Assembly (NCBI RefSeq): GCF_010550675.1
Contig: NZ_JAAGOA010000018.1
Coordinates: 62,001 to 126,000 of the forward strand
Origin: Phytoactinopolyspora halotolerans
GTDB taxonomy: Bacteria > Actinomycetota > Actinomycetes > Jiangellales > Jiangellaceae
Length of the DNA: 64,000 bases
Reading direction: 5' to 3'
Below, one piece after another: positions 37,256-44,638 of the stretch. The notes below the pieces were generated by a model. That model was given only the letters and a program-made list of their open reading frames with translations, was not told the origin of the DNA and ran no database searches. The translations under genes and the position numbers were made by a program. Every line of letters starts with the position of its first letter. The stretch's first letter is position 1.

Positions 37256-37672
37256 ATGACAATCACGATGAGCCGCATCGAGACGCAGCCGTACCCGGCC
37301 AGCAACAGTGACGCGGACGGCGTGCTGGGCACCCTGCATGACACCCTTGACACCGTCTCGGAGCTGGACCCCGATCTATTGCACTCTGACACCCTCGCCG
37401 GCCACGCGATCGTGACTCTCGCCGGGGCGGCGCGGGCGGCTGTCACAGCCCTGGGTACCGCGTCCGGAACCGCCCTGCGTGAAGCGTCCGGTGTGGTTGT
37501 CGTCCGTGACCTGGTCGCCGCCGTGTCCCTTCTGGAGCTCGCGGTGTCACGACGCGGTGGTCCTTCGGACCCCCGTGCGCTGGAGCAGATCGCGCGCAGA
37601 GCGAACACCGCGTACGGCCGGCTTCTGCTTGCGGCTCCGTCGGCGACCAAATCGGGCGTACCATGCAGGTGA
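37256..37672 (+). CDS. Uncharacterised 138-aa protein preceding the SARP regulator
   Basis: ATG 37256 with GAGGGAGG seven bases upstream. Predicted mainly helical (AIVTLAGAARAAVTALGTASGTALREA, VVRDLVAAVSLLELAVSRRGG). No signal peptide or recognised motif. The SARP-BTAD regulator starts 14 bp after its stop, so they are very likely one operon. Confidence 0.65.
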   Translation: MTITMSRIETQPYPASNSDADGVLGTLHDTLDTVSELDPDLLHSDTLAGHAIVTLAGAARAAVTALGTASGTALREASGVVVVRDLVAAVSLLELAVSRRGGPSDPRALEQIARRANTAYGRLLLAAPSATKSGVPCR

Positions 37673-37686
37673 ACGGGAGGGCGCCC

Positions 37687-39519
37687 ATGGTGACGATCAA
37701 GTTGCTCGGGCGTCCGGCAGTCTTCGGCGACGGAGTCGAGCTGGACGGGCCACGCGGCAAGAAGGGCTGGGGCCTCCTCACGTACTTGGTGAGCAACGGC
37801 GCCGCCGTCCCGCGTGAGCGCCTCGTCAGGCTCCTGTTTCCGGACGCCCAGGATGGCCTGGGTTCCTTGCGCTGGAACCTTGCGGAACTTCGCCGCATCA
37901 CGCGAGAGCCCCACACGTTCGCCGGGGACCCGGTGACGCTGTCCTTGACGCGCGACGTGCAGGTCGACATACACCTTCTGGCGGCGGCCCCGTGGTATGA
38001 GGTGATCGACCAGATCGACCTGTCCGCACCGCTCCTCGAAGGGCTCGCGTTCCCGTCGTGCGCGGGCTTCGAACTGTGGCTCGAGGGGGAGCGGCAACGT
38101 GTCGTCGCGCTTGCCGCGGCAGCTCTCCGGGAGGCCGCACGCGACGAGATCGCCTCTGCCCGGGCGGACGAAGCGGTGGGGCACGCCCGGAGGCTGGTCG
38201 CGCTCCAGCCATGGGACGAGAACTGCCATGAGCTTCTCGTTCGTGCGCTCGCCCAGTCTGGCGATGTCGCCGGAGCCCGTGCGCATGTCGAACTGGTCAC
38301 TGAGTCGTTCCTTGACGAGCTCGGTGTTGCTCCGTCCCGTTCGGTGAGTGCCGCAGCGGAGCCGCTGATGGCCCGTCCTGCACAGGCCAGCCGGACGCGC
38401 ACGGAAGCACAGCTGCAGGCGGGCATGACCGCCGTATCGGCCGGCGCGTCGGACGCCGGGATTGGGTCGCTGCGGCGCGCGGTGGCCGGCGCGAGGGCAG
38501 TAGCGGACCCCGAGCTCCTGGTGAGGGCACTGATCCACCTAGGCAGCGCCCAGGTTCACGCCGTCCGCGGCACCGACGAGGCAGGCGGGGCGGCACTCAG
38601 AGAGGCCGTCGCCGTCGCGGAACGCGTCGGACGTCCTGGCCTCGCAACCGGCGCCTGCCGGGAACTGGCGTGGGTGGAGTTCCTCCGCTGCCGCTTCGAA
38701 CCGGCCGAGCGTTGGCTGGACCGTGCCATGGCAACCGTGGGCGCCGACGATTCGGAGCGAGCCTGGATCCTGCTCACGAAAGGCTCTCTGCGCAGCGACG
38801 CCGGACGTTACGAGGAGGCGATACCGCTGTTCCTCGACGCCGTGCGGCACGCCGAGTATGGCGGTGATCTGCGGGCGCGCGCGATGGCATTGACCCACCT
38901 CGGGCGACTGCGGCTGCTGCGCGGTGAGGACGATCTGGCGTCCGAACACCTGGAGCAGGCCCGAGCACTGGCGGATCAGGCAGGGTGGCTCACGTTCGCG
39001 TCGTACCCGCTGTCCTGGAGCGCCGAATTGGCCATGCACGCTGGTCGTATAGATGAAGCAGCGGAATTGTTCAGCAGTGCCCATGCCCTGGCTGTGGAGG
39101 TCGGCGACCCGTGCTGGGAGAGCCTGGCCTGTCGGGGTCTCGGGCTGGTCGCGGCCGAGCGCGGGGAGCACGCCACTGCCGCTCGTCTGTTGTACGACTC
39201 CCGCATGGCATGCCGACGCGTCAACGACGCATACGTCTGGCTGGAGGCATACGGGCTCGCAGCTCAGGTGGCCCATGCGGTGGCAAACGGACTGGGTGGA
39301 GTCGAGGCACTGATGGACGACCTGGATCAGCTGGCGTCGAAGCACGGCATGCGGGAGCTCCAGGCGGAAGCCGCGATGTTCCGGGTCTCCGCGGGCATGA
39401 CCGACGCGTTGGAGGCGGCCCGGAGCCACGTCGCTTGCGTCGACAACCCGGTGCTCTCCGCACGGCTCGTTCGGCTGGAGGCCACTCTGGCCGAATCCAC
39501 CGCCAAGGTGCCGTCGTAG
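37687..39519 (+). CDS. SARP/BTAD-type transcriptional regulator with TPR-like repeats
   Basis: 610 aa from ATG 37687 (GGGAGGG upstream; ATG 37663 is a weaker alternative overlapping the previous gene). N-terminal OmpR-like winged helix (IKLLGRPAVFGDGVELDGPRGKKGWGLLTYLVSNGAAVPRERLVRLLFPD ... LRWNLAELRR), then BTAD (ALQPWDENCHELLVRALAQSGDVAGARAHVELV) and a long helical repeat array (~270-560, e.g. GRYEEAIPLFLDAVRHAEYGGDLRARAMALTHLGRLRLLRG). No NB-ARC ATPase domain. SARP proteins usually activate secondary-metabolite or stress genes; the target is not evident. Confidence 0.87.
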   Translation: MVTIKLLGRPAVFGDGVELDGPRGKKGWGLLTYLVSNGAAVPRERLVRLLFPDAQDGLGSLRWNLAELRRITREPHTFAGDPVTLSLTRDVQVDIHLLAAAPWYEVIDQIDLSAPLLEGLAFPSCAGFELWLEGERQRVVALAAAALREAARDEIASARADEAVGHARRLVALQPWDENCHELLVRALAQSGDVAGARAHVELVTESFLDELGVAPSRSVSAAAEPLMARPAQASRTRTEAQLQAGMTAVSAGASDAGIGSLRRAVAGARAVADPELLVRALIHLGSAQVHAVRGTDEAGGAALREAVAVAERVGRPGLATGACRELAWVEFLRCRFEPAERWLDRAMATVGADDSERAWILLTKGSLRSDAGRYEEAIPLFLDAVRHAEYGGDLRARAMALTHLGRLRLLRGEDDLASEHLEQARALADQAGWLTFASYPLSWSAELAMHAGRIDEAAELFSSAHALAVEVGDPCWESLACRGLGLVAAERGEHATAARLLYDSRMACRRVNDAYVWLEAYGLAAQVAHAVANGLGGVEALMDDLDQLASKHGMRELQAEAAMFRVSAGMTDALEAARSHVACVDNPVLSARLVRLEATLAESTAKVPS

Positions 39520-39724: not shown

Positions 39725-40363
39725 GTGTCGAATCGCCTTTTCGGTGTCTTGAACGGCTTGGTGCATCGCCACCGTGATGAGGACTTCGGAGGTAGCGCCA
39801 GTGAGTCTTATGACCGGTTGGCCCGGCGTACTCTCGGTAGCCTGTACCGGCGGGTCTGTAGCGACGTCGTCGGCATGGCGCCGCCTGGCGGGGTGATCGC
39901 GGACGTCGGTGCCGGTACTGGCAGGCTTTCCTCCCTGGTGGCCCAGGGCCGTGAGGACCTGGACGTGCATGTAGTCGATCCGTCGGCCGACATGGTGACC
40001 GTGGCGGAGCGGGTGGCCCGCGACGCCGACGTGGCCGACCGTGTCCACCTGCACGTCGCCGACGTGGCCGGGTTGCCGTTGCCGGCCGACAGCGTTGACG
40101 TGATCGTCTCTACCCTGAGCATGCATCACTGGCCCGATGTTCCAGCCGCGGCGGCTCAGCTTCGGCGGGTGCTACGGCCGGGCGGCAGGCTCCTCGTGGT
40201 CGATTTCCGTTTCGCGCCGTTCCGCGACCTCGACGACGCATTGCGGACGGCTGAGAATCCGGAGTGGACGGAGATCACGATGGCGAAGGTCCGGCTACCG
40301 TGGTATCCGTTCGCGCCCTATGCGCGGCTGCTGGCCCGAAGTGCGGGGCCCGCGGCGTCTTGA
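39725..40363 (+). CDS. Class I SAM-dependent methyltransferase
   Basis: 212 aa from GTG 39725 (AGGAAGGGA upstream). SAM-binding motif I VIADVGAGTGRLSSLVA, motif II DVHVVDPSADMV, and post-motifs VSTLSMHHWPDVPAAAAQLRRVLRPGGRLLVVDF. Acceptor unknown. Followed after 72 bp by the MerR gene that likely controls both. Confidence 0.85.
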   Translation: MSNRLFGVLNGLVHRHRDEDFGGSASESYDRLARRTLGSLYRRVCSDVVGMAPPGGVIADVGAGTGRLSSLVAQGREDLDVHVVDPSADMVTVAERVARDADVADRVHLHVADVAGLPLPADSVDVIVSTLSMHHWPDVPAAAAQLRRVLRPGGRLLVVDFRFAPFRDLDDALRTAENPEWTEITMAKVRLPWYPFAPYARLLARSAGPAAS

Positions 40364-40435
40364 GTTGTTCGGCGGTGTTCGGCGGCGACGTGGGTGAGTG
40401 GCCACGGGCTCGCTCGTGGCGGTAATGAGAGCGTG

Positions 40436-40852
40436 ATGCGCAACAGCGACGTAGACGAATTGAGCATCGGCGAGTTGGCCGACCGGTTCGGGTTGGCCAC
40501 CCATGTGCTGCGGCATTGGGAGGACGTGGGCGTCCTGATTCCGGCTCGGCGGCAGGCTGGGCGACGTCGGTACTTCACGGACCAGGTCGCCGATGTTGCG
40601 ATGATCTTGCTTGGCCGGGACTGCGGCCTCAGCCTGGGCCAACTGCGCCGGTTGATGACGGTCGCCAGCCGGGATGAGCAGCGCGCTATCCTGCTCGACC
40701 ACGTCGCGCTGCTGCAACGACGCGTCGCGGCCGCGCAGACCGCGCTCGATCTCGTAGGGCATGCACTCACGTGCGACGCGGACGACGTGACGCGATGTCC
40801 CGACTTCCGTCGAAAGCTGGATGGCTACGGGGCCGGCCCCCGGTGCACCTAG
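40436..40852 (+). CDS. MerR-family regulator
   Basis: 138 aa from ATG 40436. Winged HTH at the N-terminus: LSIGELADRFGLATHVLRHWEDVGVLIPARRQAGRRRYF, then the dimerisation helix and a C-terminal tail LTCDADDVTRCPDFR with two cysteines that might sense a metal or thiol. It should bind the TTGACTTCAGGT site at 39648 and possibly the sister site at 42695. 3' end overlaps the convergent hydrolase gene by 4 bp. Confidence 0.88.
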   Translation: MRNSDVDELSIGELADRFGLATHVLRHWEDVGVLIPARRQAGRRRYFTDQVADVAMILLGRDCGLSLGQLRRLMTVASRDEQRAILLDHVALLQRRVAAAQTALDLVGHALTCDADDVTRCPDFRRKLDGYGAGPRCT

Positions 40853-41886
40853 CCATGGGCGGCGGCGAGAAGTGCTCGTATCGCGTCGTCGAGCACTGGT
40901 CCGGTGGGGAGGGGATCGTTCGGGTCGTTCCACATCGCTATGACGGCCCGATCGTGCGAGTCGTCGATGAGCCGGTATGTGAGGGCGAGGACTCCCGGTT
41001 CCGAGCCGCCCTTGAACCAGGCGTGGTTCCATGTGTCCGACAGGTCCTGCGGTATGCCGGGGTTCGCGGACAGGATGGCGTCGATCGGCTCCAGTCCCGG
41101 GGTGTCGGCCAACGCCGCGAGTTCGCGGATGGTGGTGCACAGATCCGTCGGGGTAGCGAACCACTCGACGGACTGCACCAGCCGAGGGCTCGAGAGGTCG
41201 AGGTTCGCCACGGCCGTTGGGTCTTCCTGCCATGGGAACGGTGCTCGGTCGGCGAGATCGGTGAGGAAACGACGGCGTTCGCCGACTCCGTCGAGCGCCT
41301 CGTACTCGGCGCCGAGCTCGGGTGCGACGAACTTCAGGCGAGCCATGTCGGCCGTGGTGAGCAGTGGGATGTTCTGCTCCGAGGACGCCGGCGCGACCTC
41401 GGCGATGACGGCTTCGACCGTCTGGGCGCCAATGAGTGAGATCAGATGGTCGGTCGCGCTGTTGTCGGAGATCGAGATCATCAGCTCGGCCGCGTGCCGC
41501 ACCGTCACGGTGGATCCGTCCGGGACGGTGTACAGCTCGCCACTGGGATCGCTGCGTAGCTCGTCGCGTACGACCAGGTCGTCGTCCCATGACAGTCGCC
41601 CGCCGGCGATCGCGTGGCCGAGCGCGATGAGCACCCACAGCTTGAACGCCGACGCGATCGGGAGCGCCTGCTCGTGAGCGACGCCGTCGACGAGTCGGCA
41701 GCGACCGTCGTCGAGATCGAAGACGGCATACGCGACGTTGGGTGCGAGCGCCATGATCGGGCCGTCGGCTGCCGCGGCCGATATCGGGGGCGGTCCGTCA
41801 GGGGTGTCGACGTGGCTGGAGGCGCAACTGCCGGCGACCAGGATCGTTGCGATCACAGTACAGCCGAGGAGCCGTCTGGAGATCAT
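40849..41886 (-). CDS. Lipoprotein serine hydrolase with class A beta-lactamase fold
   Basis: 345 aa from ATG 41886. Lipobox VAGSC (Cys21). Beta-lactamase/transpeptidase-type motifs: SxxK as Ser79-A-F-Lys82, SDN at 140-142 (ISDNSATDHL) and a KGG box WFKGGSEPGVL in place of KTG. The omega-loop Glu is not obvious. Could be a divergent class A-like enzyme, a D-Ala-D-Ala-type peptidase or an esterase; antibiotic hydrolysis is not established. Appears leaderless: its ATG is 7 nt after a -10 hexamer. Confidence 0.85.
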   Translation of the reverse strand: MISRRLLGCTVIATILVAGSCASSHVDTPDGPPPISAAAADGPIMALAPNVAYAVFDLDDGRCRLVDGVAHEQALPIASAFKLWVLIALGHAIAGGRLSWDDDLVVRDELRSDPSGELYTVPDGSTVTVRHAAELMISISDNSATDHLISLIGAQTVEAVIAEVAPASSEQNIPLLTTADMARLKFVAPELGAEYEALDGVGERRRFLTDLADRAPFPWQEDPTAVANLDLSSPRLVQSVEWFATPTDLCTTIRELAALADTPGLEPIDAILSANPGIPQDLSDTWNHAWFKGGSEPGVLALTYRLIDDSHDRAVIAMWNDPNDPLPTGPVLDDAIRALLAAAHG

Positions 41887-41888
41887 GC

Positions 41889-41936
41889 CTGCCAACCTAG
41901 GTTGACAGTCGGTCGCCTGTCAACCTAGGTTGGCAG
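41889..41936. promoter_or_regulatory. Perfect symmetric divergent promoter/operator
   Basis: Two 20-bp arms (41889-41908 and 41917-41936) are exact reverse complements around an 8-bp spacer. On the plus strand: -35 TTGACA (41902-41907), 18-bp spacer, -10 TAGGTT (41926-41931), ATG at 41938. On the minus strand the same elements lie at 41918-41923 and 41894-41899, with ATG at 41886. Each -35/-10 region also contains the palindrome CAACCTAGGTTG (41893-41904 and 41921-41932), so one repressor could silence both genes. Both transcripts should be leaderless or nearly so. Confidence 0.75.
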
Positions 41937-41937
41937 T

Positions 41938-42150
41938 ATGCAGGAGGCGCCCATTCGCATCCCCGACCCGACGGACCCCGCCGCCACGCTGGCGACCGTG
42001 GTCTCGCTCCGCCGGCTCGCCGACAGGCTCGAGTTGGCCGGTGCCCAAGCCGCGATCGATCAGGGCTGGTCGTGGACGGACGTCGCCGAAGCCCTCGGTG
42101 TCAGCAGGCAGGCCGCCCACAAGAAGCTCGCCCGCCGCATCACCCAATGA
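41938..42150 (+). CDS. Small helix-turn-helix protein
   Basis: 70 aa, ATG immediately after the symmetric promoter. The C-terminal HTH IDQGWSWTDVAEALGVSRQAAHKKLARRI is clear. It commonly precedes a ClpN-domain gene in actinomycetes. The likely repressor at CAACCTAGGTTG sites. Confidence 0.8.
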   Translation: MQEAPIRIPDPTDPAATLATVVSLRRLADRLELAGAQAAIDQGWSWTDVAEALGVSRQAAHKKLARRITQ

Positions 42151-42175
42151 CGAACAGACCCAGCAAGGAGGACCC

Positions 42176-42700
42176 ATGTTCAACCGACTGCGCCGGCGAA
42201 CCGGTGATATGCGCACAATCAAGCACCTACTCGCTGACGCGGAGAACGTGGCGCGAGAACAGGGCGCGGACAAGCCCGGCGCCGAACACCTCGTGATCGC
42301 CGCGCTGGCCTTGCCGGACGGCACGGCCCGCCGGGCCTTCGAACGCATCGGCGCCGACCCGGACGCCTTCGGGACGGCCGTCACCGAACAGCACGCCGAG
42401 GCGCTGCGGGACATCGGCATCGATCACGACGACGCCGCGCTCAGTGCACAACTCCCCGAACCGCAGCCGGCAGGCGGCGTCTATCGCAGCGAGGTGTCCA
42501 TGCAACAGCTCTTCCAGCGTGTGACCGACGACGTCAAGAGCGATGGATCCAGCCTGGTCGGCGCCCACGTCATCCGGGCGGCCGCCCGCATGGAGTACGG
42601 AACGACGGCCCGCGCGCTCGATCACATGGGAATCGACCGCATGGACCTCGCCCAGGCGGCCGGGGCCGAGATCGCCGGACGGCACGCCGATGCGAGTTGA
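42176..42700 (+). CDS. Clp repeat (ClpN) domain protein
   Basis: 174 aa from ATG 42176 with AAGGAGG before it. Contains two Clp N-terminal-type repeats: KHLLADAENVAREQGADKPGAEHLVIAALALPDGTARRAFERIG and LFQRVTDDVKSDGSSLVGAHVIRAAARMEYGTTARALDHMGID. No AAA ATPase. It may be an adaptor for Clp protease or sequester substrates. 25 bp after the HTH gene, same operon. Confidence 0.85.
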   Translation: MFNRLRRRTGDMRTIKHLLADAENVAREQGADKPGAEHLVIAALALPDGTARRAFERIGADPDAFGTAVTEQHAEALRDIGIDHDDAALSAQLPEPQPAGGVYRSEVSMQQLFQRVTDDVKSDGSSLVGAHVIRAAARMEYGTTARALDHMGIDRMDLAQAAGAEIAGRHADAS

Positions 42701-42722
42701 CGTCAGGCTGATCTGAAGCGCC
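42695..42722 (+). promoter_or_regulatory. Second, degenerate copy of the MerR-type site
   Basis: AGTTGACGTCAGGCTGATCTGAAGCGCC matches the site at 39648 in 24 of 28 positions. It overlaps the ClpN stop codon and faces a 126-bp gap before the convergent TetR gene. Could drive a small transcript, or be a relic. 42723-42848 shows no gene. Confidence 0.5.
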
Positions 42723-42848
42723 CGGCCGGCGGCGGCTCGTTCCCGGTCCTTCCCGCGGCCGGCGGCGAGGATCGTGCTCACACGACTGCACGCCACGGCT
42801 CTCACGTCCGGTCTGACCATCACCGTGTGGTGGACAGCGTGCGGGCGA

Positions 42849-43589
42849 TCAGCTGTGCTGATGGGTCAGGCCGAGGGGTGCGGCCGACTTCGTGGCGAGT
42901 CGGTCGAGGTAGTCGTCGAGAGACGTGAGGACGTCGGCGTAGTGCCCGAAGAGCTCGAAGCTGACCGCTCCGAACAACATGGTCCATGCGTCGAGCACGT
43001 GCAGGACTCCGGACGCCGGCATCTCTGCCAGTGCTGCGGCGATCTCATCATCCTGAGAGACGGCGGGGTGCGTCTTCAGAATCTCGACGTCCGTGGCTAA
43101 TGCGTCGGTCACCGGGTCGTCTCCCGGCGTTCCAGTGCGACGGGCCACCGCGGCCTCGATCGCGATCTGCGCCAGCAATATGACCACTTCGCCGGCCGGA
43201 ATCGCCGTGTGCTCCGGTGCGGCGTATCCGGGCACCGGAGAGCCGTAGACGAGGGCGTACTCGTGCGGATGCTCGCGTGCCCACTCACGGACCGACCGGA
43301 ACACCGCCTTCCAGCGACCGAGGTGATCCTCCCGGGCCACCTGCGACTCCGCTCGGCGTGCAGCCTGGCCGAGCCCCACGTACGCGTCGGTGATCAGAGC
43401 CGTCAGCAGGGCGTCGCGGCTGGGAAAGTACCGGTAGACCGCCGACGACGCCATGCCCAGTTCACGCGTGACGGCTCGCACCGACAACCCGCCCGCGCCG
43501 ACCTGCGCCAGCTGCCGGCGAGCGACGTCCTTGATCTCGCGGGTCAGCTCGTCCCGTACCCGCTGCCGGAACCCACGTGTCGAAGCCAT
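42849..43589 (-). CDS. TetR-family regulator (TetR_C_25-like), divergent from the epimerase gene
   Basis: 246 aa from ATG 43589. HTH: RQLAQVGAGGLSVRAVTRELGMASSAVYRYFPSRDALLTALI. The C-terminal portion (VREWAREHPHEYALVYGSPVPGYAAPEHT) is typical of the WHG-type TetR_C_25 group. Probable controller of the adjacent NAD-dependent epimerase. Confidence 0.87.
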   Translation of the reverse strand: MASTRGFRQRVRDELTREIKDVARRQLAQVGAGGLSVRAVTRELGMASSAVYRYFPSRDALLTALITDAYVGLGQAARRAESQVAREDHLGRWKAVFRSVREWAREHPHEYALVYGSPVPGYAAPEHTAIPAGEVVILLAQIAIEAAVARRTGTPGDDPVTDALATDVEILKTHPAVSQDDEIAAALAEMPASGVLHVLDAWTMLFGAVSFELFGHYADVLTSLDDYLDRLATKSAAPLGLTHQHS

Positions 43590-43631
43590 GCCGCCATTCT
43601 TGCACATAGCGCGAGCAGTAAACGTAAACGA

Positions 43632-43694
43632 GAGCACTGCTCTTGACAAGGCATACGAGACCAGCAACACTGATCTTTAAGGAGAGCAGTGCTC
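43632..43694. promoter_or_regulatory. Two TetR operators GAGCACTGCTC / GAGCAGTGCTC
   Basis: 11-bp palindromes at 43632-43642 and 43684-43694, 52 bp apart and reverse complements of each other. They lie just upstream of the TetR and epimerase genes respectively, so each would block one promoter. Confidence 0.65.
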
Positions 43695-43708
43695 ACAAAG
43701 GAGAACCC

Positions 43709-44638
43709 ATGTCCCACCACCTCGTCCTCGGCGCCGGCACCATAGGCTCCGTCCTGGCCATACAACTGGCGAACGACGGGCACGAGGTCCGCGTCGTGAC
43801 GCGTTCTGGTACCGGCCCATCGCACCCCGGCATTGCCCTCGTCAAGGCTGATGTGCTGGATCGCGATGCGCTTCGTCCGCACGCCGCGGGCGCCGCCGCC
43901 GTCTACAACACCCTCAGCCCGCCGAGCTACCAGCAGTGGTCCTCCATGTGGCCGCCGCTGGCAGCGGCCGTGCTCGACGTCGCCGAGTCTTCCGGAGCGG
44001 TTCTGGTGACCATCAGCAACCTCTACGGGTACGGCCCCGTCGTAGGGCCGATCAGCCGCGACCTTCCGCTCGCTGCCACGGAGCACAAGGGCAGGCTGCG
44101 AGCTCGGCTGTGGCAGGATGCGCTCGCGGCCCACCAGGCAGGGCGAGTGCGTGTCACCGAGGCACGGGCGTCGGACTTCCTCGGTCCCGGCGTCGGACTG
44201 CACGCGGGATTGATCACCCGTTACGGGCAGGCAGCGATGGCCGGCAAACCCGTGCGCGTGCTCGGGGACCCGGACGCGCCGCACAGTTTCACCTACGTCG
44301 ACGACGTTGCACGCACCCTGGCCGTCCTCGGCACGGACGAGCGTGCATGGGGACATCCATGGCACGTCCCTTCGTCCCCGCCGGTGTCCGTGCGAAACCT
44401 CCTCGAGTCGGCCACCCAGCGCGGCGGCATCCAGGCCCCCCGAATCCGCCGGATCCCCAGGAGTGCCCTCACGCTGCTCTCACCCTTCTCGCCGACGCTC
44501 CGTGAGGTACGCGGTGTGCTGTACCAATGGGAGGCGCCCTTCGAGATCGACGCGACGGCTACCACGACCGTCTTCGGGCTGGAACACACGCCATGGGATG
44601 ACGTGATGCGCAGAACGACCGCTGATTGGCAGCAGTAG
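43709..44638 (+). CDS. NAD-dependent epimerase/dehydratase family protein
   Basis: 309 aa from ATG 43709 (AAAGGAG upstream). Rossmann start HHLVLGAGTIGSVLAIQLANDGHEVRVVTR and later SFTYVDDVARTLAVLG and PWHVPSSPPVSVRNLL. The usual YxxxK is not clear, so it may belong to the atypical NmrA/extended SDR sub-branch. Substrate unknown; induced through the TetR protein. Confidence 0.8.
   Translation: MSHHLVLGAGTIGSVLAIQLANDGHEVRVVTRSGTGPSHPGIALVKADVLDRDALRPHAAGAAAVYNTLSPPSYQQWSSMWPPLAAAVLDVAESSGAVLVTISNLYGYGPVVGPISRDLPLAATEHKGRLRARLWQDALAAHQAGRVRVTEARASDFLGPGVGLHAGLITRYGQAAMAGKPVRVLGDPDAPHSFTYVDDVARTLAVLGTDERAWGHPWHVPSSPPVSVRNLLESATQRGGIQAPRIRRIPRSALTLLSPFSPTLREVRGVLYQWEAPFEIDATATTTVFGLEHTPWDDVMRRTTADWQQ

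Follow-up and report, generated by a model that had tools for sequence, protein, structure and literature searches.

Closest described systems

The mycobacterial protein ClpC2 binds a pseudo-palindrome (CGTCAAC-n5-GTTGACG) that lies 1 to 2 nt before its own ORF and is often doubled (Taylor 2023, PMC10030653). These operators overlap the putative -35 and -10 elements and both are bound at once (PMC10030653). The protein is an autorepressor, cyclomarin A lifts the repression, and leaderless transcripts were suggested, so that a one-way twin operator with a suggested leaderless start is already known (Taylor 2023, PMC10030653). DNA recognition was placed in the C-terminal domain of the fused protein (helix 174-189), and the crystal fragments comprise residues 4-72 and 94-252. 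Residues F2, F80, and E89 of ClpC1 were named as critical for cyclomarin (PMC10030653). Ecumicin and ilamycin, also ligands of ClpC1, bind ClpC2 without inducing it (PMC12913811).

Two other systems share features with the locus studied here. RelI, of the RelS-RelI toxin-antitoxin system (PMC13284704), is an HTH protein related to our 70-aa HTH protein (profile E value of 1.2e-6), whereas the partner here is a Clp N-domain (ClpN) protein and no such toxin gene was found among the scanned neighbors. An HTH region in ClpC2 was already noted in that source. In the bidirectional promoters of Warman 2026 (PMC12825309), one shared symmetric -10 is read both ways. The likeness to our locus is that sequence symmetry leads to divergent transcription and to mutually exclusive polymerase binding, both of which are predicted here. 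In contrast, their starts lie by or within the shared -10, with 18 bp as the most common distance, while the starts predicted here are 52 bp apart and are both start codons, and each -35 lies in the operator holding the other direction's -10.

We analyzed a control region of Phytoactinopolyspora halotolerans within a stretch of 64,000 nucleotides (the window). Our main reading, to which we give a probability of about 0.7, is that this region controls an autoregulated cassette of the ClpC2 type, split into two proteins, and has become a two-way switch, in which dimers of the HTH protein shut two leaderless promoters and the ClpN protein lifts the repression. The features are listed in Table 1.

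Table 1. Features of the control region and of its flanking genes (positions in the window)
Feature	Position	Strand	Basis
Operator copy 1, the one farther from the HTH gene (distal); includes the -35 of the plus strand and the -10 of the minus strand	41889..41908	.	Family pattern
Operator copy 2, the one nearer to the HTH gene (proximal); includes the -10 of the plus strand and the -35 of the minus strand	41917..41936	.	Family pattern
Predicted -35 TTGACA, HTH-ClpN operon	41902..41907	+	TTGA at the same place in 169/173 four-spacer twins
Predicted -10 TAGGTT (TANNNT), HTH-ClpN operon	41926..41931	+	Central TA in 160/173 four-spacer twins
Predicted -35 TTGACA, serine hydrolase gene	41918..41923	-	Sequence pattern
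Predicted -10 TAGGTT, serine hydrolase gene	41894..41899	-	Sequence pattern; the Phycicoccus relative has TACGGT
Exported beta-lactamase-fold serine hydrolase (345 aa), possible lipoprotein	40849..41886	-	Pfam Beta-lactamase2 (PF13354), 3.2e-21
HTH protein (70 aa), putative repressor	41938..42150	+	Pfam HTH_23 at curated cut-off; relative of the ClpC2 N-terminal domain
Shine-Dalgarno AAGGAGG before the ClpN gene	42165..42171	+	Sequence read
Clp N-domain protein (174 aa), putative ligand sensor or sponge	42176..42700	+	Pfam Clp_N, 7.8e-10

Two palindromic operators and two predicted promoters

The first-pass annotation had described an exact inverted repeat, and this was confirmed by reading the sequence. 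The arms, which are the two operator copies, are reverse-complementary at 20 of 20 positions around an 8-bp spacer (41909-41916), and they reach 23 nt at 96% complementarity. Each arm alone is a near-perfect palindrome with one outer mismatch, CTGyCAACCTAGGTTGrCAG, around CAACCTAGGTTG. Since each arm is itself palindromic, the large mirror amounts to one palindromic site present twice, in nearly identical form, at a distance of 28 bp. The 51 bp between the two ATGs (41938 on the plus strand and 41886 on the minus strand) hold these two operators and a few more bases.

The mirrored promoters of that annotation were also found. On both strands, TTGACA is followed after 18 bp by TAGGTT; the ATG comes 6 nt later on the plus strand and 7 nt later on the minus strand. 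The patterns TTGACA-N18-TANNNT-N6-ATG and -N7-ATG each had one match in the 64-kb window, as did a pair of CAACCTAGGTTG, and 0 of 100 shuffles matched in either case. When CAACCTAGGTTG was searched at up to one mismatch in the 7.30-Mb assembly, only these two places were recovered. The mirror arrangement is not a product of chance. A sigma-70 scan of positions 40000 to 44000 found no promoter (0.3 expected), because it requires 9 of 12 consensus matches. In actinobacteria, the -10 has the form TANNNT, and it is on this form and on conservation that the promoter claim rests.

Leaderless actinobacterial genes have their -10 about 6 to 7 nt before the start codon and lack a Shine-Dalgarno sequence. 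By sequence, this is what both sides present: the -10-to-ATG distances fall in that range, and a clear Shine-Dalgarno is missing before the first gene of either side. A reading of the repeat as a terminator or RNA hairpin was dropped, since it lies upstream of both inferred starts. The label of one bidirectional promoter, given at first, does not hold in the strict sense of Warman 2026, as the two -10 hexamers are separate and none is shared. The region is, by prediction, a pair of fully overlapping divergent promoters.

A split relative of ClpC2

The model of the HTH protein (pLDDT of 90.8) has helices at residues 14-41, 46-53, and 57-69. A fold search with this model gave generic matches and none at an E value of 0.001 or lower, with the ClpC2 structure 8ADA (Rv2667) absent among the best 50 of 643. 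Searches with the single sequences had neither 8ADA nor 8AD9 among the matches listed; the HTH family profile matches 8ADA at 0.0011, and the ClpN family profile matches ClpC1 N-domains and ClpC2 8AD9 (4.4e-21). We found eight fused ClpC2 relatives for comparison, all of one genus (L144, L146-L152), and the HTH profile aligned to their N-terminal part with a probability of 97.1% (hhalign, E value of 6.7e-11). Judged by these profiles, both domains are kin to ClpC2. A plasmid search with the HTH protein returned four records, all distant matches.

The likeness to ClpC2 (Rv2667 and M. smegmatis clpC2) extends to the DNA. In both systems, twin GTCAAC..GTTGAC pseudo-palindromes stand by the start codon over the -35 and -10, and an HTH-like N-terminal part goes with a Clp N-domain part. 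Three differences separate them, as far as the published account of ClpC2 goes. ClpC2 is one polypeptide, whereas here the proteins are separate, the ClpN gene starting (42176) 25 nt past the stop of the HTH gene (42150). The gap between half-sites is 5 in ClpC2 and 4 here. Finally, the distal operator here also carries a predicted promoter for a divergent exported hydrolase.

The ligand may differ as well. In the ClpN protein of P. halotolerans, F2 is kept and the residues aligned to F80 and E89, positions placed by the F-N8-E spacing of F172/E181 (PMC10030653), are S and Q. As two of the three critical residues differ, the ligand is probably not cyclomarin. Both F80 and E89 are kept in 10 of 18 rows of the ClpN alignment, as counted by eye.

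Conservation of the twin operator

HTH relatives occur in 41 of 60 genomes and in 258 of 393 genomes of the class, counts that include the P. halotolerans genome, fused ClpC2, and matches without a ClpN partner. The loci compared came from 80 named loci and 80 further stretches, which were the best matches of each search and not a random sample. Related species are repeated among them, and the counts therefore measure conservation and not independent events.

In a first set, scored for GTCAAC only (at least 9 of 12 positions), the palindrome GTCAACNNNNGTTGAC ended 2 to 5 nt before the start codon in 122 of 131 unique loci. A second copy lay upstream in 119 of the 131, at 27, 28, or 29 bp in 48, 58, and 13 loci, respectively. 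This spacing of the palindromes corresponds to a promoter spacer of 17 to 19 bp. The set was then enlarged and scored with a relaxed rule (10 of 12 positions, the two outer ones being A or G and T or G), by which the P. halotolerans core ends 3 nt before the HTH ATG. Under this rule, 200 of 218 HTH loci had the proximal palindrome and 181 had the twin, again at a spacing of 27 to 29 bp, with GTCAAC-type half-sites 4 or 5 bp apart. Most of the 18 loci that failed carry variants such as GTCAGTCnnnnACTGAC at the same place; on inspection, L143 and L145 had nothing similar to the operator. A ClpN partner was present in 201 of the 207 loci scoring at least 80 bits.

The twin arrangement in 181 of 218 related loci supports the earlier proposal that the palindromes serve as operators of the HTH-ClpN operon. 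The predicted leaderless start also gained support, since every one of the 181 twin loci has its start codon 2 to 5 nt past the proximal palindrome and the geometry on the hydrolase side is kept in the Phycicoccus relative described below (L063). Among the 173 twins with a 4-bp gap (four-spacer twins), TTGA stands at the end of the distal copy, as a -35, in 169, and TA in the center of the proximal copy, as a -10, in 160. The distal copy has the central TA in only 16, from which we infer that a one-way promoter is the usual state and the two-way form is rare. From these comparisons, the conserved unit is the twin operator and not the mirror, and the twin tracks the HTH-ClpN pair across the class.

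Two loci stand apart from this set. L073, from a record of Ensifer sp. LC11, is a twin-operator HTH locus on a contig labeled as proteobacterial, which reflects either contamination or transfer. At another P. halotolerans locus (L184 2225-2283; G000:C26:25224-25282), two GCCAACN4GTTGAC palindromes lie 43 bp apart, next to genes that read by eye like a TetR regulator and a monooxygenase-like gene. It was set aside as probably a different operator.

The divergent hydrolase and the second direction

The divergent gene encodes a protein with a class-A-like PF13354 domain and with the marks of serine beta-lactamases or PBP-like proteins, namely SAFK, SDN, and KGG, all shared with the L063 protein. 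We take these to be its SxxK, SDN, and KTG-like motifs. A lipobox-like stretch is weak in the P. halotolerans protein (AGSC) and good in that of L063 (LAGC). The best solved relative is ORF12 (PDB 2XEP, 6.2e-27), which has the beta-lactamase fold and belongs to the clavulanic acid cluster; the P. halotolerans hydrolase is shorter than ORF12 and has a signal-peptide-like start. None of the eight proteins scanned around the hydrolase indicated clavulanate genes. In this neighborhood, a MerR-family regulator gene (40394-40852) converges on the hydrolase gene, and a large BTAD/TPR regulator-like protein (37663-39519) is encoded upstream of a methyltransferase gene (39725-40363). The P. halotolerans genome also has a second PF13354-type relative of the hydrolase (G000:C65:206797-207534; 41% identity, in an open frame of 489 aa).

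Is the hydrolase direction real? The two closest relatives found resemble the P. halotolerans locus to about the same degree: L004 (68% identity for HTH and 45% for ClpN) and L063 (66% and 43%), a Phycicoccus metagenome-assembled genome. The divergent hydrolase recurs in L063 (49% identity); its ATG lies 4 nt from the distal palindrome, and the center of that palindrome reads TACGGT on the hydrolase strand. The letters of the mirror have thus changed and the layout has been kept, which makes L063 the main evidence that the hydrolase direction may be functional. In L004, on the other hand, the distal copy is GTCAACCTTGGTTGAC, without a -10; there is no hydrolase, and the ORF of a different protein starts 18 nt away. 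Of this closest pair, one relative therefore retains the divergent hydrolase with its predicted promoter and the other does not. The first-pass annotation had named a loss of symmetry in close relatives as what would speak against it. This has partly come about: the letters of the mirror differ in L063 while the layout survives, and a conserved mirror has to be given up, given the changed letters in L063, the missing distal -10 in L004, and the 157 of 173 four-spacer twins that lack TA there.

The wider searches placed the hydrolase next to an HTH gene in the same two genomes. Relatives of the hydrolase were found in 63 of 393 genomes of the class, P. halotolerans included, the others at no more than 43% identity. 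From that search, 30 hydrolase loci were fetched, including four other genomes of the genus, and only the P. halotolerans locus had the HTH gene in the stretch. A search of the Phycicoccus family matched 31 of 186 genomes, and among the 31 further hydrolase loci the HTH gene was in the stretch only in the Phycicoccus metagenome-assembled genome. A plasmid search with the hydrolase gave 14 records, all below 60% identity.

These data allow an alternative in which only the HTH-ClpN direction is real and the hydrolase is expressed weakly or from elsewhere. The distal CCTAGG center would then be incidental, near-perfect palindromes being those that bind best. The 157 distal copies without a -10 fit this view, as does L004, which is as close as L063. 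In addition, a gene starting at the distal copy was identified in only 2 of the 16 twins with a distal TA (P. halotolerans and Phycicoccus); of the other 14, 9 have no ORF of at least 60 aa within 15 nt and 5 have unassigned ORFs, so that a central TA can be present without a divergent promoter. However, the hydrolase ATG is only 7 nt from the -10, and a promoter further upstream would fall inside the HTH-ClpN genes. Moreover, L063 keeps the hydrolase, with 4 nt between palindrome and ATG and with a -10 of other letters that is still valid. We consider the one-way alternative unlikely and retain the two-way switch.

Which protein reads the operator

A second alternative is that the operator is recognized by the ClpN protein and not by the HTH protein, as Taylor 2023 placed it for fused ClpC2. 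The double change R185A/R189A does weaken binding in vitro, with expression 2.0-fold higher in vivo, yet loss of R57, a dimer salt-bridge residue in the HTH part, raised expression 4.6-fold (PMC10030653). In our comparison, the recognition helix of the HTH protein is strongly conserved, with Q58, H61, and K63 invariant in 24 sequences. The operator gap also tracks the HTH type: all 173 n4 twins go with HTH proteins that stand alone (in 168 cases a separate ClpN is present by the rule used), and the n5 operators go with the eight fused ClpC2 (8 of 8), all from one genus. In seven of the fused proteins, the counterpart of this recognition helix (TKQAAQKRF) begins at residue 73, and in one (L151) at residue 70. 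The helix is thus in neither ClpC2 structure, since the N-terminal fragment ends at residue 72 and the C-terminal one starts at residue 94. Last, the HTH stands alone in the split operon, and five HTH operons with no detectable adjoining ClpN have the same twin operators, which argues that the HTH is what reads the DNA. The ClpN protein as the reader is therefore improbable, and the HTH protein is our candidate repressor. What we add to the noted HTH region of ClpC2 is this residue argument, which puts its probable recognition helix outside both crystals.

It is hardly credible that the palindromes belong to the nearby MerR or TetR (42849-43670) protein: both regulators lie within 2 kb, and MerR and TetR sites are typically palindromes set in promoter spacers, but the operators accompany the HTH gene in 200 of the 218 loci, which were selected by this gene alone, and ClpC2 itself binds the mycobacterial version (PMC10030653).

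Third genes in related cassettes

Hydrolases recur in related cassettes. A paralogous locus of P. halotolerans (L183 2467-3751; G000:C12:331966-333250) has a twin operator GTCAACN4GTTGAC, 29 bp apart, followed after 2 nt by a 78-aa HTH gene that overlaps by 4 nt a gene for a PF00144 beta-lactamase-like hydrolase. The same pair is present in four other genomes (L299, L300, L306, and L308; hydrolases 64 to 69% identical), making 5 of the 30 loci fetched, with three of these four genomes in the same genus. An HTH-ClpN pair followed by a PF00144 (class-C-like) hydrolase was found in L065 and L066 (Nocardia), L070 (Crossiella), L238, L240, and L252, that is, 6 of 129 loci with enough sequence. Five of these six loci were checked with Pfam, together with L183, L299, and L308. 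An iterated hydrolase profile drifted into HTH-ClpN translations (113 matches) and was replaced by a trimmed profile. The 12 matches of this trimmed profile (11 distinct loci) were all downstream of the HTH gene and on the same strand, with none in any other part of the stretches.

The second type of partner is a DrrA-like ABC ATPase, about 0.5 to 0.7 kb after the HTH gene in 16 of 120 loci (among them L007, L067, L074, L084, L087, L090, L092, L098, L263, L275, and L295). The downstream gene in those 120 loci was taken by a crude longest-ORF rule, several of the resulting clusters look wrong-frame, and Pfam confirmed only the ABC and beta-lactamase members. DrrA was the best NCBIfam match in 4 of 4 proteins tested, below its cut-off, and Pfam ABC_tran matched 6 of 6. 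A profile built from 14 loci found the ABC gene downstream on the same strand in 16 of 187 loci, against 5 upstream in about equal sequence; compared with the first 16 loci, one was lost and one gained. A GTTGC-type proximal half-site is present in 15 of the 16 ABC loci, compared with 31 of 187 overall. All these third-gene counts are inflated by relatedness. The hydrolase and DrrA-like partners suggest an inducible antibiotic response.

Proposed mechanism and meaning

In the two-way switch, the -35 and -10 of a predicted promoter, which would start at the HTH start codon, are overlapped by a pair of palindromic operators spaced 28 bp from each other. As the distal operator also carries a -10, a second, fully overlapping predicted promoter faces the exported hydrolase, and one repressor for both sides would be the natural reading of this layout. 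Dimers of the 70-aa HTH protein would sit on the two operators and prevent RNA polymerase from transcribing either way. The separate ClpN protein may sense a ligand, either a peptide antibiotic, an unfolded protein, or another Clp-binding molecule, and its contact with the HTH protein, which we assume, would free the operators much as cyclomarin does on fused ClpC2. Autorepression, dual-site binding, and relief by a ligand are taken from this published relative. Both mRNAs would then start at the ATG. Because each -35 lies inside the operator with the other's -10, only one polymerase could bind at a time, and the two directions would compete once derepressed. The output would be more sensor or sponge protein inside the cell and hydrolase outside.

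A broader proposal, which we hold tentatively and at less than even odds, concerns the split HTH-ClpN pairs as a whole (201 loci, in many actinobacterial families). They could be widespread, unnamed inducible resistance cassettes in which a decoy Clp N-domain senses attackers of the Clp protease and unlocks both the decoy and an enzyme that destroys or exports the drug. This enzyme would be the exported beta-lactamase-fold hydrolase on the mirror promoter here, and elsewhere the class-C-like hydrolase or DrrA-like ABC ATPase of the same operon, with the DNA read by the HTH helix that is outside both ClpC2 crystals. Among the titles and abstract starts listed from the open-licence literature, we found nothing on the split HTH-ClpN pair or its hydrolase and exporter partners, nor any divergent leaderless promoter like the one here. 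Apparently new are therefore the separation of HTH and ClpN, the n4 and n5 gap types, the two-way layout that serves an exported hydrolase, and the third genes for hydrolases and exporters.

An odd mirror sequence has thus led to a conserved control design. Our results suggest that the mycobacterial ClpC2 decoy response is a special, fused form of a system spread more widely among actinobacteria, and that the DNA-reading part of ClpC2 lies within residues 73-93, which are missing from both published crystals. They also suggest that hydrolases and exporters were joined to this switch on more than one occasion. Peptides that target Clp serve as drug leads, and an inducible natural counter-measure linked to such enzymes would therefore be worth knowing.
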